A DNA stretch of 64,000 bases. Origin: Chloroflexota bacterium (GTDB taxonomy: Bacteria; Chloroflexota; Anaerolineae; Anaerolineales; Villigracilaceae). The position numbers and the translations under genes were made by a program. Of this stretch, positions 207 to 62,156 are shown piece after piece. The stretch covers positions 1 through 64,000 of the forward strand of contig JACRBJ010000060.1 of NCBI GenBank assembly GCA_016234555.1, in the 5' to 3' direction. The notes beneath the pieces are model-generated. The model saw only the letters and a program-made list of their open reading frames with translations, made no database searches and was not told the origin of the DNA. The stretch's first letter is position 1. Every line of letters begins with the position of its first letter.

Positions 207-908
207 ATGGCATATCAATTGGCTGCTGTCCTCTTTACATTATCATCTATTACCTTTGCGACAATTACATATACAATCATACATGCATATCTACGCCATA
301 AGAAAGGCGGGGTTATCCCCGAAAATGTGAAGTGGATTTCTCTCTTTTCTGGAATTATTTTGTCAGTACTATTTTCTTTTGGAGTCATGTTTTGGCTGGT
401 CAAACAAACTGAAGATGTCTTCAAGCAATTTGATGAAACAGAGTTCATCAAAACCCATTATGCGGGAGTTGATTGTTCATCGCTAAAAGGATCTGTTTTT
501 CGAGCTAACGATGATATGTCCAGATCCGCTCAGTCTGTATGCTTAGCCGAAAGAGCTTGGTTTGAAAATAATATCAACTTTTGCTACCATACGGGTAATC
601 CTAACAACAACTGCTTGACTTGGATGGCGATTAAATTAGGAGATCTGAAAATCTGTGAAATGCAAAAACCATATTATGACCCTGATTCTTCTTTTTTCGA
701 TGTCGGATTCGGAGGGTTAATACTTGAGGAAGAAAAGCCGCGCGCATGGCTTTATAGGTGCTACTGGATTTACGCTAGAATGCGAGACGAATCAGCAGTT
801 TGTGATTTAATTCCATTTGCGCGTGAATCCTCAAAACAAACCGAGTGCATAAAACCCTCAACGGATGGCGACACATATTTGGAATTCAAATATGCGCCTA
901 TTTGGTAG
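207..908 (+). CDS. membrane protein of unknown function, Cys-rich outer part
   Basis: Not recognised. The 233-residue product has two hydrophobic segments, about residues 5-27 and 43-65, and then a soluble part of about 165 residues. The soluble part carries several spaced cysteines, which fits disulfides or metal binding outside the membrane. The start is supported by an AGGAAAAG-type ribosome site about 7 nt before the ATG. The gene is visibly AT-richer than hisS or the suf genes and lies beside an IS110 element, so it may belong to a transferred patch. No catalytic motif is visible. Confidence 0.65.
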   Translation: MAYQLAAVLFTLSSITFATITYTIIHAYLRHKKGGVIPENVKWISLFSGIILSVLFSFGVMFWLVKQTEDVFKQFDETEFIKTHYAGVDCSSLKGSVFRANDDMSRSAQSVCLAERAWFENNINFCYHTGNPNNNCLTWMAIKLGDLKICEMQKPYYDPDSSFFDVGFGGLILEEEKPRAWLYRCYWIYARMRDESAVCDLIPFARESSKQTECIKPSTDGDTYLEFKYAPIW

Positions 909-5658: not shown

Positions 5659-6321
5659 ATGAACAGGAAGCTGATCGACCTCAGTCACATCGTCGAGCAT
5701 GGGCTGGTCACCTACAAAGGGCTGCCCGCGCCCATCCTTTGCGACTATCTCTCGCGGGAAGACTCGCGAAGTCACTACTCAGGCGGCACGGAATTCCACA
5801 TCGGCAAGATCGAAATGGTGGCAAACACGGGAACCTATGTGGACAGCCCCTTCCATCGTTTTGCAGATGGCATCGACCTGTCCGAACTTCCGCTTGAGTC
5901 TCTGGTTGACCTGGAGGGAGTTGTCGTCCGCGCGCAAAGCGTGGGACGTGCAATTTCCGCAACAGCGTTCAAGAATGTAAACGTGAAGGGCAAGGCTGTG
6001 CTTGTCCACACCGATTGGTCGCGTCACTGGTTGACAGACCAATATTACGAAGGTCACCCGTTCCTGACAAAAGACGCGGCGGAATTACTCGTCGAAGCAG
6101 GGGCAGCCTTCGTCGGAGTCGACACCTACAACATCGACGACACCACAGACGGGACACGCCCCGTCCACACGATTCTGCTTGGGAATCAAATCCCCATCTG
6201 CGAGCACATGTGCAGGTTCGACCTGCTCCCTGACAGCGGATTCAGATTTCACGCGGCTCCCGTCAAGGTGAAGGCGATGGGGACATTTCCCGTAAGGGCT
6301 TACGCGGTATTGGACAAATAA
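5659..6321 (+). CDS. cyclase-family protein (kynurenine formamidase-like fold)
   Basis: The 220-residue product opens with LIDLSHIVEHGLVTYKGLP, typical of the cyclase/KynB family of metal-dependent hydrolases. The family signature HxGTHxDxPxH appears as NTGTYVDSPFH at residues 56-66. D62, P64 and the last histidine are kept, but the first two histidines are Asn and Tyr. Zinc binding must therefore differ from kynurenine formamidase, so I do not assign that activity. It starts 2 nt after the methyltransferase stop and is probably translated with it. Confidence 0.8.
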   Translation: MNRKLIDLSHIVEHGLVTYKGLPAPILCDYLSREDSRSHYSGGTEFHIGKIEMVANTGTYVDSPFHRFADGIDLSELPLESLVDLEGVVVRAQSVGRAISATAFKNVNVKGKAVLVHTDWSRHWLTDQYYEGHPFLTKDAAELLVEAGAAFVGVDTYNIDDTTDGTRPVHTILLGNQIPICEHMCRFDLLPDSGFRFHAAPVKVKAMGTFPVRAYAVLDK

Positions 6322-56909: not shown

Positions 56910-57929
56910 TTACAACAGCCTTGGCTGCCCTTCCTCCGTGTAGGTGTATCCCAAATGCTCGTACGCGGATTTGGTGGCGACGCGTCCCTGCGGGGTGCGG
57001 TCGAGGAAACCGAGTTGCAGAAGATACGGCTCGACCACGTCCATGATGGTGTCCTGTTCCTCGCTGATGGACGCGGCGATGGTGTTCAAGCCAACAGGTC
57101 CGCCGCTATATTTTTCGATGATGGTCTTGAGCACGCGGCGATCCACGTCGTCGAGACCAAGGGGGTCAACCTGTAACAAGTCCAGCGCTTCCTTGGCGAC
57201 CTTCTGCGTGATGACCCCGTCCGCGCGGACCTGGGCAAAGTCACGCACGCGGCGCAAGAGACGCAACGCCACACGCGGAGTCCCACGGGCACGGCGCGCC
57301 ATTTCGGTGATGCCTTCTTCTTCCGCCTGCACTTTCAACATGGCAGCGGCGCGGGAGACGATGGATTGCATGGCGGGGAGGTCATAATAATCGAGGCGAT
57401 AGACCGCGCCGAAACGCGCCCGCAGCGGAGCAGTCACCAGCGCAAGGCGGGTTGTAGCACCGACAATGGTGAAACGCGGCAGTTTCAAGCGGATGGAACG
57501 TGCCGAAGGCCCCTTGCCGATGACGATATCCAGTGCGAAATCTTCCATCGCGGGATACAGCACCTCCTCGACAGCCCTGCCAAGGCGGTGGACTTCGTCA
57601 ATGAAGAGCACGTCACCAGCCCGAAGGTTGGTCAGAATGGCGGCGAGGTCGCCTGCACGTTCGATCACGGGTCCAGCCGTGACCTTGACATTGACTCCCA
57701 TCTCGTTGGCAAGGACGTGCGCGAGGGTGGTCTTCCCCAAACCAGGAGGTCCGTAAAAGAGGACATGGTCCAACGCCTCGCCGCGATGTTTGGCGGCGTC
57801 GATCAGGATGGATAAATTCTCCTTGACCTGGTCCTGCCCGATCAGGTCACTCAGTTTCTCGGGACGCAGGGCGTTGTCCACGCGGTCATCGGGTTTGGCT
57901 TCGGGGTCAAGGGGTCGAGATTTTGTCAT
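56910..57929 (-). CDS. ruvB: RuvB, Holliday junction helicase
   Basis: AAA+ motor of branch migration, working with RuvA in recombination repair. The 339 residues carry [19 protein letters not shown], Walker [10 protein letters not shown] (60-68), FIDEVHRL, the sensor VGATTR, and the C-terminal winged helix with [15 protein letters not shown] and [14 protein letters not shown]. The ATG at 57929 has TATAAT (57941-57936) ending 6 nt upstream and no ribosome site, so it is probably leaderless; an earlier in-frame start lies inside the promoter. No ruvA or ruvC in the window. Confidence 0.97.
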
Positions 57930-57995
57930 AGTGGAATTATACCGTCCTTCGACTGTGCTCACATCGTCCCGATGGTTTTTCGGGAGGACGAATGG

Positions 57996-59025: not shown

Positions 59026-60405
59026 CTAAAACGTCCCATAGATTCCAGGCTGGAAGGCGGCATTCGCAGTGGATGCGATGGATGCCAGAAGGAGAAAAAC
59101 CAGCCACAGGTCATATACAATTTGGCGGGGAATTACAAAACGGTCACGGGCGAATCGATCCACTTGTTTCTGAAACCAGCCACCGACAGGAAACGAGAAC
59201 AACACTCCAGCCGCGAGTGCCAACACGAAGGTCGGCTCGATGATCGGCAGCGGACTGGTCAAGCCAAACGGCAGGATTTTGTATCCCGTCATGTCGCCCA
59301 CAAGTCGCCGCACGAAATCCAGCGCAAAGTCAGGAGTTGGCGAGCGGAAGAATACCCAGCCAACCAGAATCACGCCCAGAGCATAGATATGCTGGATGGG
59401 CGCCCAAGCCGTCCGCAACTTTCGCCCCCACGAAGTAGATTCAAATATCAGCGCGGAGCCGTGAATCAGCCCCCAGATGAGGAAGTTCCGCGTTAAGCCG
59501 TGCCAAAGTCCCGTGAGGGCAAAGACAATCAGAATGTTGATTTGCTGACCAAGCCACTTCAGCCGCCGTCGTTCGAGCGGATAAAAGACATAATCGCGGA
59601 ACCAACTTGAAAGGGAGATATGCCAGCGCCGCCAGAAGTCGCCGATATTTTTGGAGAGGTAGGGAAAGTTGAAATTTTCGATGAAGCGGAGTCCAAGCAT
59701 CCGCCCGACGCCGATCGCCATGTCGGTGTAGCCCGAAAAATCGAAGTAGAGTTGCAGTGCATAACTGAGAATCACCAGCCAGGCAATGTGCGGAAGAATA
59801 ACAGGCGAATCGAGATTGAAGATCGGCATGACCACTTTGGCAAGGGTATCGGCGATCAGGGCTTTTTTTGCAAAGCCGCGAATGAAACGGCGGATGCCTT
59901 CCGCGACATCTTCAGGCGTGACCTGAATGTTCTGGATTTGCTCCCGCAACTGACGATAGCGGGTGATGGGTCCAACGGGGATCTTCGGGAACAACAGCAG
60001 ATAAAACGAAAAGGCGAGGATATCTTTCTCGTATTCCGATTCCTTGCCGTACACCTCGACCAGATAGGCAATCGCCTGAAAGGTGACATAGGAAAGCCCA
60101 AGCGGATATTTGACTCCCGTCCACAGTTTGAAGCCGACCAGCAAGGCGACGTTGACCAGAATCCCCATCCAGAGCAAAAAGAAGGAGAGTCTTCCTCCGC
60201 GCCAGTGGTTGATTCCCCGCCCAAGCAGGTAGGCAAACAGGGTCAGACCCGCCACCAACGGGACATAGGTCAGGTTGCCCCAGGCGTAAAACAGGAGGCT
60301 ACCGACAATGCCAAGGGCAAGTTTTATCCGCTGTGGTGAAAAATAATACGCGGCGATAAAGAGCGGCAGGAAAAGGAAAAGAAAAATGGGGGAATTGAGT
60401 TCCAT
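59026..60405 (-). CDS. AlgI-like MBOAT acyltransferase
   Basis: Membrane-bound O-acyltransferase of 459 residues and about ten to twelve helices. It passes acetyl groups across the membrane for polysaccharide acetylation. Motifs: FPKIPVGPITRYRQL, YFDFSGYTDMAIGVGRMLG, NFPYLSKNIGDFWRRWHISL and the catalytic histidine in ALTGLWHGL. The start at 60405 matches the family; upstream in-frame sequence runs through the 73-bp palindromic element and is not coding. It is first gene behind three tandem GEMM riboswitches, so its expression should follow a cyclic dinucleotide. Confidence 0.93.
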   Translation of the reverse strand: MELNSPIFLFLFLPLFIAAYYFSPQRIKLALGIVGSLLFYAWGNLTYVPLVAGLTLFAYLLGRGINHWRGGRLSFFLLWMGILVNVALLVGFKLWTGVKYPLGLSYVTFQAIAYLVEVYGKESEYEKDILAFSFYLLLFPKIPVGPITRYRQLREQIQNIQVTPEDVAEGIRRFIRGFAKKALIADTLAKVVMPIFNLDSPVILPHIAWLVILSYALQLYFDFSGYTDMAIGVGRMLGLRFIENFNFPYLSKNIGDFWRRWHISLSSWFRDYVFYPLERRRLKWLGQQINILIVFALTGLWHGLTRNFLIWGLIHGSALIFESTSWGRKLRTAWAPIQHIYALGVILVGWVFFRSPTPDFALDFVRRLVGDMTGYKILPFGLTSPLPIIEPTFVLALAAGVLFSFPVGGWFQKQVDRFARDRFVIPRQIVYDLWLVFLLLASIASTANAAFQPGIYGTF

Positions 60406-60495
60406 AAAATTCAACCACCCTTGTTGCGGGATTCCTGTTGCAGGGGCGACAGGCGGCAGGGTTGGCTCATGGACGGGGATTATACCCTGCGGCAC

Positions 60496-60568
60496 TATAC
60501 CGCACTCGGTCACAAATTGCGCTTTCCGTCCTCTAAAAAAGCGCAATTTGTGACCGTGGGTATTATAT
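60496..60568 (-). repeat. 73-bp palindromic element, copy 2
   Basis: The same 19-bp arms as copy 1 (60507-60525 and 60538-60556) and the same flanks in inverted orientation (TATACCGCACT on the left, TGGGTATTATAT on the right). The loop differs. It sits in the leader between the riboswitch array and the MBOAT gene. Confidence 0.88.
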
Positions 60569-60635
60569 GTAACAATAAACCGCCTCCACCCATCAGCACC
60601 CACAGGGCAAGAGAGCTGGTGAACTCCAGAATCAA

Positions 60636-60666
60636 ACAGGGATGATCAACGTTCAATCATCCCTGT
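60636..60666 (-). terminator. terminator-like hairpin downstream of the riboswitch array
   Basis: ACAGGGATGAT pairs with ATCATCCCTGT (11 bp, 9-nt loop). On the minus strand it is followed by TTTGATTC, a weak T run. It begins 15 nt after aptamer 3 and is the obvious expression platform. Confidence 0.65.
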
Positions 60667-60680
60667 AAAAAGATTGCTCT

Positions 60681-60768
60681 TCGGCAGTCTGGCAATCATG
60701 ATCACGAAAAAATAATTTTGTGATTTTAGACCCATGACTTTGCGCCATCAGGTTTTCCTGATTTTGCC
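60681..60768 (-). promoter_or_regulatory. GEMM-I riboswitch, aptamer 3 (leader-proximal to the gene)
   Basis: Minus strand: AAAGGCAAAA opens, P2 is ATCAGG/CCTGAT over an AAAA loop, then the conserved GGCGCAAAGTCATGGGTCTAAA, a P3 stem ATCAC/GTGAT with a long loop, and the closing GACTGCCGA. All conserved blocks of the c-di-GMP-I class are present. The base before the GCAAA core is G, as in c-di-GMP binders. Confidence 0.88.
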
Positions 60769-60770
60769 TT

Positions 60771-60853
60771 TCGGTAGCCGGTCAATCCTGACCACGCTTT
60801 CGCGTTGGTTTTAGATCCCTGACTTTGCGTCACCGTCTTTTGGCGGTTTTGCT
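60771..60853 (-). promoter_or_regulatory. GEMM-I riboswitch, aptamer 2
   Basis: Minus strand: AAGCAAAACC opens, P2 is ACCGCC/GACGGT over AAAA, then GACGCAAAGTCAGGGATCTAAA. P3 is ACCAACGC/GCGTGGT with a GAAA loop, and the closing block is GGCTACCGA. Only a 2-nt gap separates it from aptamer 3. The base before the GCAAA core is A. Confidence 0.88.
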
Positions 60854-60856
60854 TTT

Positions 60857-60934
60857 GTCGGCAGTCTGGCGGTCCTGGCTCAGTTCAGCTTTAGACCCAT
60901 GACTTTGCGCCACCGGGTTTCCCCGGTTTTGCTC
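60857..60934 (-). promoter_or_regulatory. GEMM-I riboswitch, aptamer 1 (promoter-proximal)
   Basis: Minus strand: GAGCAAAACC opens, P2 is ACCGGG/CCCGGT with the typical GAAA tetraloop, then GGCGCAAAGTCATGGGTCTAAA. P3 is GCT/AGC inside GGTC/GACC, and the closing block is GACTGCCGA. The base before the GCAAA core is A. Confidence 0.9.
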
Positions 60935-60951
60935 TTTCTCGGAGCAATTTT

Positions 60952-60980
60952 ATTATTGCACGCGAAGATTAAAATTTCAA
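60952..60980 (-). promoter_or_regulatory. promoter of the riboswitch-MBOAT-AlgJ unit
   Basis: On the minus strand TTGAAA (60980-60975), 17-nt spacer, AATAAT (60957-60952). The predicted RNA start near 60945 is about 10 nt before aptamer 1. Confidence 0.7.
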
Positions 60981-60995
60981 TCACTCAGTTGTTCT

Positions 60996-61034
60996 AAAAA
61001 TCAGCACTTCCGCCGCCAAGAACTGCAGCGGAAG
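60996..61034 (-). terminator. terminator of the efflux operon
   Basis: On the minus strand CTTCCGC pairs with GCGGAAG, followed by TGCTGATTTTTAG. It begins 10 nt after the adaptor gene stop and isolates the riboswitch unit from it. Confidence 0.7.
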
Positions 61035-61043
61035 CATCATTTG

Positions 61044-62156
61044 TTATTGAAAAGTCACTTCAACCGTCATGCCCCATTTCAAGCGCGGATCGGGGTTCTT
61101 GACGGTGATGCGCACGGTGTAAAGGATGTCGCCGCCCTGCTGGGTGTACGCCTGACCGATTTCCGTGATGGTCCCGTTGAGGGTCAATTCGGGGAGGGCG
61201 TCGGGGACGAGGGAGACGGGCTGCCCCTCGCTGAGTTTCACCACTTCAAGCTCGGTCACGTCGGTGGTTTCCACAATCCACTGGCTGAAATCCGCCACGC
61301 TGGCAGCGCGGGTATCGGGAGTCACCTGCTCGCCCGCCTTCACGTTGACCTCTGCCACGACCCCGTCAAACGGGGCGGTGATGATGTAGTTCGAAAGCGT
61401 ATCCTTCGCCGCGTCGAGGTTGGCTTTGGCAAGCGCCAGTTGCTCGGCGTTGGGACCGTCGAGGCTGATCTCGTACTGGTGTTTGGCTTCAGCTTCGGCG
61501 GCAAGGGCGTCATCGTAGGCGGCGCGGATCTCGTCGCGTTCACGAGTTTCCTTTTCCAGGTTACGCAGCGCCTCGTTCAAATCCTCCTCCGCCCTTTCGA
61601 GGTCATCCTTGGCGTCCTTGCGCTTGGAATTATCCTCGTCGAGGTCCTTGAATTTGTCGAATTCCTCCTGCGCGTCCTTTAGGTCTTCGCGGCGGTCTTC
61701 GACAGTGGCTTTGCGATCATCGATGGTCTCCTCGATGTTATCCACATTGAGGTCTTCCCATTCCTTTTCGGCGTCGGCGCGGACGATTTGGGCATCCATA
61801 TAAGCCTGCCAGAGTTTGGCGCGGTCGCCGCTCTCGTTGCGGAGGAGGGTGTCGTAGGCATTCTGGGCAATGACCACTTCAGCCTCCGCCCCACCCGCAT
61901 TCGTCAGGCGGACAAGGACATCTCCCGCCTTGACCGAGTCGCCCGCGCTGACCAAAACTTCCTCCACCACGCCGCGTGCCTGAAAATACAAGTCAGCACC
62001 GAGGATGGGTTCGAGACGACCCTCCGCCACCACCTGATCGGGAGAAACCTCAGCCGCTTGCGTCGGAGTTGCCACTGTGGGTTGTATTCCACACGCGGAA
62101 AGGAACAAGGCAAGGGTGACAATCAATGTAACGAAACACAGGATGTTTTTTTTCAT
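61044..62156 (-). CDS. HlyD/RND-type efflux adaptor lipoprotein
   Basis: The 370-residue product has a lipoprotein signal with lipobox LSAC. The biotinyl-lipoyl-like halves are QARGVVEEVLVSAGDSVKAGD near residue 60 and APFDGVVAEVNVKAGEQVTP near 265. Between them lies a long charged coiled coil (about 100-245). The C-terminal part is beta-rich and ends LKWGMTVEVTF. Such adaptors join ABC or RND pumps. It follows the permease after 43 nt; an ATPase should lie nearby, probably beyond the window. Confidence 0.9.
   Translation of the reverse strand: MKKNILCFVTLIVTLALFLSACGIQPTVATPTQAAEVSPDQVVAEGRLEPILGADLYFQARGVVEEVLVSAGDSVKAGDVLVRLTNAGGAEAEVVIAQNAYDTLLRNESGDRAKLWQAYMDAQIVRADAEKEWEDLNVDNIEETIDDRKATVEDRREDLKDAQEEFDKFKDLDEDNSKRKDAKDDLERAEEDLNEALRNLEKETRERDEIRAAYDDALAAEAEAKHQYEISLDGPNAEQLALAKANLDAAKDTLSNYIITAPFDGVVAEVNVKAGEQVTPDTRAASVADFSQWIVETTDVTELEVVKLSEGQPVSLVPDALPELTLNGTITEIGQAYTQQGGDILYTVRITVKNPDPRLKWGMTVEVTFQ

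Follow-up and report, generated by a model that had tools for sequence, protein, structure and literature searches.

The window, the whole stretch of 64,000 nt analysed here, carries on its minus strand three class I c-di-GMP aptamers (RF01051; A1, A2 and A3) arranged head to tail. In the 51 complete units of this kind that we collected, the aptamers are accompanied by covarying helices, a promoter-like element and a terminator-like hairpin, and the conserved unit is independent of the identity of the gene that follows it. We lean, at slightly better than even confidence, towards the reading that the triple unit is an independent RNA gene of ~315 nt, consisting of its own promoter, three aptamers, a shared closing helix (P0) and a terminator, and acting by binding c-di-GMP. 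The more specific proposal, that it is a stand-alone, constitutively terminated sponge or buffer with three sites for c-di-GMP, vertically inherited in a family of Anaerolineales, is made tentatively and below even confidence. The parts of the unit in the window are as follows:

60981-60996, minus strand: upstream element TAGAACAACTGAGTGA, a possible operator, just 5' of the -35
60952-60980, minus strand: promoter-like TTGAAA-17-AATAAT, with TG before the -10
60942-60948, minus strand: 5' strand of P0, ATTGCTC (core GCTC, 60942-60945), from RNAalifold and pair counts
60858-60932, minus strand: c-di-GMP-I aptamer A1
60771-60852, minus strand: c-di-GMP-I aptamer A2, hidden in full-window scans
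60681-60767, minus strand: c-di-GMP-I aptamer A3
60673-60679, minus strand: 3' strand of P0, GAGCAAT, from RNAalifold and pair counts
60628-60666, minus strand: terminator-like hairpin (60666-60636) with T-rich tail

Three aptamers, one of them hidden from wide scans

Searching the full window with RF01051, for which the gathering score is 35 bits, returned A1 (60857-60943, 73.6 bits) and A3 (60680-60778, 70.8 bits), both on the minus strand, and a relaxed E-value over 60100-61100 again returned only these outer two. The middle aptamer, scanned by itself, matched at 60770-60863 with 60.2 bits, and a search of the complete genome reported all three. A2 is missed in the wider scans most likely because the 87-position model reaches, with both its 5' and its 3' flank, into the neighbouring matches. 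The sequence-only reading had named three GEMM-I (c-di-GMP-I) aptamers here, and this is borne out by three scores above the gathering score. The check that it proposed, three RF01051 matches over 60600-61000, succeeds with A2 alone and genome-wide but yields two matches in a wide scan, where it would wrongly look refuting because A2 is hidden. Chance is ruled out by the scores together with the conservation of the arrangement in 51 units.

Trimmed to GCAAA..CCGA, the window aptamers are joined by CAAAA (A1-A2, 5 nt) and AAG (A2-A3, 3 nt). The rest of the host genome (5.8 Mb, 101 contigs) holds four more RF01051 matches, namely a pair on contig C56 and singles on C58 and C95. G20, A47 and C92, which we take to be the ligand-contact letters (Vc2 numbering), are present in all three window aptamers; an A at position 20 favours c-AMP-GMP. 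Across the units these letters are kept in 43/43 copies of A1, 43/43 of A3 and 38/43 of A2, the exceptions being A47 to G in L203, L204, L207 and L209, and C92 to T in L102. A2 is the least regular of the three and may be drifting or changed in affinity; at two inner P3 positions, 29 and 36 of the 42 aligned units respectively depart from the standard. Each aptamer is predicted to bind c-di-GMP.

Occurrence and inheritance of the triple unit

The triple unit is present in 42 of the 57 genomes of the genus, in one of them (G019) cut by a contig edge, and also in nine family members from other genera and in record DYKI01000135.1 (L075), whose upstream genes match those of other units. The 51 complete units are therefore 41 from the genus (without G019), nine from the other genera, and L075. 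A search pattern for the A2-A3 junction matched a single time in each of 39 genomes out of 400 from the order (30 of the 45 sampled genus members and nine in other genera of the family), with none in the reversed control. Because a second linker of 3 nt and a start resembling that of A3 are built into this pattern, only the first linker, A1, P0, the promoter and the hairpin count as independent findings for these 39 matches. A custom covariance model, free of the junction assumption, found nine more units among 24 genus genomes, 15 of the 24 being pattern negatives, and a search for MBOAT orthologues through the 57 genus genomes yielded eight loci with the triple leader. The nine covariance-model units and the MBOAT loci were thus found without the junction pattern, and the genus total of 42 comprises 30 from the pattern, nine from the covariance model, and G078, G079 and G029 from the MBOAT search. 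In 15 of the 57 genus genomes no unit was detected, and six of these gave no match at all to the custom aptamer model.

All 51 complete units carry three aptamers. The first linker is 5 nt in 47 units and 4 nt in four, and the second 3 nt in 50 and 2 nt in one. For 146 of 153 aptamers, the nearest aptamer from another species is the one at the same position, which argues that the triple is old and has been inherited as a triple.

A wider contig scan gave at least 110 stretches, and among the 80 loci kept the tight arrays were only of this type, ten complete and one (L080) cut by a contig end. An array in G056 (L265), from another family of the order, has a degenerate, ghost-like A1 (318-399, minus strand, 29.5 bits) and flanks CGCTC/GAGCG that make a P0 by eye, and inspection by eye found no clear terminator there. 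In G174, likewise from outside the family, a two-aptamer array is flanked by GCACTC/GAGTGC (P0 by eye) and has a strong hairpin-plus-T terminator; the co-directional gene ~460 nt downstream is presumably of glycoside hydrolase family 3. Three weak aptamer matches in a Clostridiales MAG (L088, 1814-2106, minus strand) are loosely spaced, 41-43 nt apart.

Promoter, closing helix and terminator

In the 50 units with enough flank, the best match picked by script was in every case a TTGAAW-like -35, a spacer of 16-17 nt and a WATAAT-like -10, the layout seen in the window; TG precedes the -10 in 43 of the 50. The -10 ends 18-21 nt upstream of A1, and the transcript therefore probably begins at or beside P0. 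In the scan that gave the promoter-like element and the hairpin of the window unit, promoter-like sites numbered 3 against 0.5 in shuffles, and terminator-like sites 8 against 1.1. Of 50 units, 48 retain TAGAAC..TG in the element just upstream, including cases such as the window unit in which this element is outside the hlyD coding sequence.

Applied to eight leaders, RNAalifold proposed unprompted a helix between GCUC before A1 and GAGC after A3, which we call P0. Our alignment comprises 42 of 43 units, L218 being left out for its missing 5' flank, and does not include eight units found later. Taken as six pairs, P0 is 93.3% paired across the 42 units; two pairs are invariant and four of the six have changed on both sides (GC to AU in two units, CG to UA in one, UA to CG in three, UA to GC in one). 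The outermost, sixth pair is unpaired in 11/34, and a trial seventh outer pair was paired in only 53.3%. The clearest variants are TGCACTT/AAGTGCA (L209), GCACTC/GAGTGC (L208) and CGCTC/GAGCG (L204). For the full structure, 92.0% of cells are paired against 85.1% in shuffles, and covariation is 0.278 against 0.143 in shuffles and at most 0.087 in slid structures. Since related sequences can beat shuffles without any structure, more weight falls on the slid structures and on the single pairs that changed on both sides. In 33 of the 51 units the 5' GCUC has two possible partners, a GAGC where A1 begins and the GAGC that follows A3.

The terminator-like hairpin has changes on both sides in 11/11 pairs across the 42 units. 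Folding of the 42 units predicts it with a mean probability of 0.97 (lowest 0.65), and structures denied the hairpin are 14-27 kcal/mol less stable, a figure that describes equilibrium folding of the terminated RNA and not co-transcriptional competition. The T tract is modest, with five T in nine in the window unit. With the promoter-like layout in 50/50 units and the hairpin in all 42 tested, the unit has its own promoter and terminator at the level of sequence only.

A palindrome, AGAACANNTGTTCT, occurs at five perfect sites in the genome, and with at most one mismatch in 18 places against seven for the reversed control. The five perfect sites (L242-L246, near position 1501) resemble the conserved half element TAGAAC..TG upstream of the RNA promoter, and several of them overlap promoter-like sequence. 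A LexA/SOS role for TAGAACA..TG was considered; two genes adjacent to sites were translated, and neither was recognised as an SOS gene.

Genes around the unit

Downstream of the unit in the window we annotated the following:

60507-60556, no strand assigned: dispersed palindromic repeat between the unit and MBOAT, from its genome copies
60479-60484, minus strand: promoter-like TATAAT, 79 nt before the MBOAT ATG
59026-60405, minus strand: MBOAT (AlgI/DltB-like) O-acyltransferase gene, PF03062, 76 bits
57996-59120, minus strand: AlgX/AlgJ-like SGNH acetyltransferase gene, PF16822, 76.1 bits; open reading frame as listed, overlapping the MBOAT end
56910-57929, minus strand: ruvB, with its own TATAAT (57936-57941) close to the ATG

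The promoter-like sequence, the terminator-like hairpin and the MBOAT and AlgX/AlgJ-like genes that the sequence-only reading had noted around the aptamers are all present (60980-60952, 60666-60636, and the two Pfam matches above); its statement that the aptamers drive a polysaccharide acetylation operon fares poorly. Across the 51 units, ruvB follows in 31, MBOAT in eight, a response regulator and then ruvB in four, and an amidohydrolase at 438 nt in one; two units run into a contig end and five have no evident co-directional gene. Moreover, a perfect TATAAT stands 37-80 nt before the MBOAT ATG, between hairpin and gene, at 8/8 loci. Given the changing neighbours, the intervening promoter-like elements and the lack of an evident expression platform (below), we set the acetylation-operon reading aside; MBOAT is probably a neighbour and not the target of the triple unit, and some c-di-GMP-dependent read-through into it is possible.

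The MBOAT orthologue of G036 has no triple leader, and the G036 unit precedes ruvB instead. At four of the eight MBOAT loci the sequence from this TATAAT continues to CATGAGC.AA, resembling the start of ruvB in some relatives where ruvB is adjacent to the unit (CATGAGCAAACC, L064), which would fit an insertion of the MBOAT cassette at the 5' end of ruvB. Wherever ruvB was found, adjacent to the unit or not, TATAAT-N4-9-ATG precedes it (43/43); with TATAAT only 4-9 nt before the ATG, as at 57929-57941 in the window, ruvB looks leaderless. By eye, the four response-regulator genes have their own TATAAT or TGCTATACT elements. The palindrome at 60507-60556, about 50 nt long, recurs at ~25 places in the genome (strands merged) and is REP- or MITE-like; it was not seen at the same place in the triple leaders of seven relatives. 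Its large hairpin, considered as an attenuator, was rejected as being this dispersed repeat.

The five units without a co-directional gene (L209, L230, L234, L075 and L210) all come from draft genomes, and L230 and L234 are alike in sequence, which leaves four independent cases at most. By Pfam, the convergent gene is a molybdopterin-binding one of the xanthine-dehydrogenase type in L209 and a DnaJ gene in L230 and L234, where the contig ends less than 1.4 kb from A3 in both. In L075 a polyprenyl synthetase gene converges at 903 nt, past a 233-aa frame that starts 15 nt after A3, has no Pfam match and was treated as dubious. L210 has convergent frames without a Pfam match above the cut-off, with ruvB 1.8 kb further on. 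L230 also has a single c-di-GMP-I aptamer (5769-5848, minus strand), which precedes its convergent DnaJ-domain gene by ~160 nt. On the upstream side, the nearest long frame ends in an HlyD-type tail (GMT.E..) in 40/51 units by eye; among the rest, L205 and L206 have guaB (named from sequence), L209 a histidine kinase gene and L208 a CarD-like gene.

Search for an expression platform

Ordinary c-di-GMP-I aptamers of the genus are often followed by a run complementary to their 3' strand, the longest run having a mean of 5.9 nt and at least 6 nt in 18/37; this set is 37 of 42 non-triple aptamers, four being left out as outside the genus and one as lying at a contig edge. For the 3' strand of A3 in 43 units the corresponding mean is 4.6 nt against 4.8 in shuffles, that is, at chance, with 6 nt or more (scores 6 or 7) in 6/43. 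The two groups differ (one-sided Mann-Whitney p = 4e-5, not corrected for relatedness), and, as 19/37 ordinary aptamers also have 5 nt or fewer, the measure separates groups and not single cases. Folding of the 42 units found no competing antiterminator, the hairpin being predicted regardless. By these tests, which are imperfect, no expression platform is evident in the sequence.

A short helix between the 3' flank of A3 and the T-rich tail alternates between AAUC/GAUU and AACC/GGUU in many genus members and by eye is absent in most units from outside the genus; its columns 321/368 hold UA in 10 units, CG in six, UG in three and AU in one, are unpaired in 10 and have a gap in 12. As the AAUC/GAUU helix overlaps P0 by two to three letters, ligand-modulated termination is possible. 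A pairing by eye of GUCAU in A3 with an arm of the hairpin, as an anti-terminator, was abandoned, since relatives such as L043 do not conserve it.

Interpretation of the unit

In the reading that we favour, a dedicated promoter would transcribe an RNA made almost wholly of aptamer. As the 3' end of A3 emerges, P0 would form and close the three aptamers into one domain; this step would also free A1 in the 33 units where the 5' GCUC could first pair with the GAGC at its start. The hairpin would then end transcription, and the RNA, presumably released free and with P0 holding its aptamers together, may serve as a sink or buffer for c-di-GMP, taking up about three molecules per RNA. The very tight binding of c-di-GMP by class I aptamers would suit a sink, whose effect would depend decisively on how abundant the RNA is in the cell. 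With little sequence left for base-pairing and no constant target, binding of c-di-GMP itself would be the simplest function, and the acetylation operon would be a later neighbour of an older RNA unit.

Against a stand-alone RNA speaks that a co-directional gene follows in 44 of the 51 units, with the hairpin lying ahead of it. The same fact supports an attenuation riboswitch acting in cis, in which the three aptamers feed one terminator that controls MBOAT-AlgX here and other downstream genes elsewhere. MBOAT (eight units) and response-regulator genes (four) suit c-di-GMP biology and could plausibly gain from such control, and the overlap of P0 with the AAUC/GAUU helix is a conceivable switch. 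We nevertheless regard this explanation as unlikely, because the unit stays constant while its neighbours change, 5/51 units have no evident co-directional gene, and the most frequent neighbour, ruvB (31/51), has a TATAAT close to its ATG in 43/43 cases; folding found no competing antiterminator, and no aptamer-complementary segment rises above chance.

If the RNA is free, it might instead act in trans, refolding with c-di-GMP so as to expose or hide a segment for pairing with mRNAs or for protein binding. The layout is like that of stand-alone sRNAs, and the alternative 5' pairing offers a possible refolding step in 33/51 units, but that pairing is absent in the other 18, and beyond the aptamers, P0 and the hairpin there are only short linkers and variable loops, with no conserved seed by eye. 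We give this explanation a rather small share of our belief. That the unit is a functionless remnant of a former riboswitch, stranded between hlyD and ruvB, appears very improbable: the target gene is not constant and no unit was detected in 15/57 genus genomes, as a relic might suggest, yet pairs have changed on both sides throughout, and the contact letters, linkers and promoter-like element are near-invariant. There is a real chance that the triple unit is a free-standing c-di-GMP-binding RNA.

Comparison with described arrays

The sequence-only reading noted that tandem pairs are known and called triples unusual; it missed natural triples already in the literature. One report describes Bc3-5 of Bacillus thuringiensis, a triple-tandem c-di-GMP-I riboswitch in the 5' UTR of cspABCDE, whose Bc3, Bc4 and Bc5 are presented as three independent elements with their own predicted terminator each (PMC4759541). 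The window unit likewise has three c-di-GMP-I aptamers in a row, but it has no terminators between them; it has one terminator and a shared closing helix, and the gene that follows varies. In the 51 units only 4-5 and 2-3 nt separate the aptamers, so that there is no Bc3-5-type platform per aptamer. A 2022 survey counts 347 doublets and 12 triplets of c-di-GMP-I, apparently classed under multiple expression platforms (PMC9481103). A 2025 survey places c-di-GMP-I triplets before yebA in Bacillota (PMC12452182). Triple arrays are therefore known, and what differs here is a closed unit with one P0, one terminator and no constant gene; the parts of these three papers open to us describe no platform-less, single-platform, closed or stand-alone c-di-GMP-I array.

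The tandem glycine riboswitch, as covered in the 2022 survey (PMC9481103), resembles the window unit in that several aptamers for one ligand share one downstream element; it belongs to another class and is cis-regulatory, with a dual aptamer and one platform, whereas the window unit has three aptamers and a long-range closing helix. The raiA/ModT RNA is, as here, a stand-alone conserved structured noncoding RNA, the window RNA being built instead from aptamers of known ligand. Rli55 and EutX are trans-acting, riboswitch-controlled sRNAs in which one aptamer controls a protein-binding site; they share with the window RNA an aptamer within a regulatory RNA, but the latter has no visible second domain. 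Among the matches listed in the literature, largely non-subscription papers, there was no RNA sponge or stand-alone c-di-GMP array, and by title or abstract none of the papers listed for Chloroflexi concerned this subject; for Anaerolineae no paper was listed.

An aptamer in a natural riboswitch is usually taken to be a cis-acting switch for the gene that follows. If the favoured reading is right, this would suggest that bacteria also employ aptamers in free RNAs that bind a ligand, in this case a signal central to lifestyle, and the unit would be an RNA counterpart of the protein sponges for cyclic nucleotides, with its riboswitch aptamers held together by a single closing helix.

A middle aptamer can escape standard Rfam scans; in scans that drop overlapping matches a triple unit would pass as a spaced doublet, and some published doublets with a gap of ~80-90 nt may be triples that went unrecognised. 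The idea of a hidden middle aptamer in every doublet of the genus was rejected for the ordinary ones: the C56 pair has a hairpin between its aptamers, and other ordinary doublets carry aptamer-complementary terminators. By eye, the ordinary doublets L001, L009, L014, L018, L019, L021, L022, L032 and L033 have a terminator-like hairpin after their first aptamer and, after the second, a leader of the type GAGCC..GGATGCTC..AAGGAG with the look of a translational platform.
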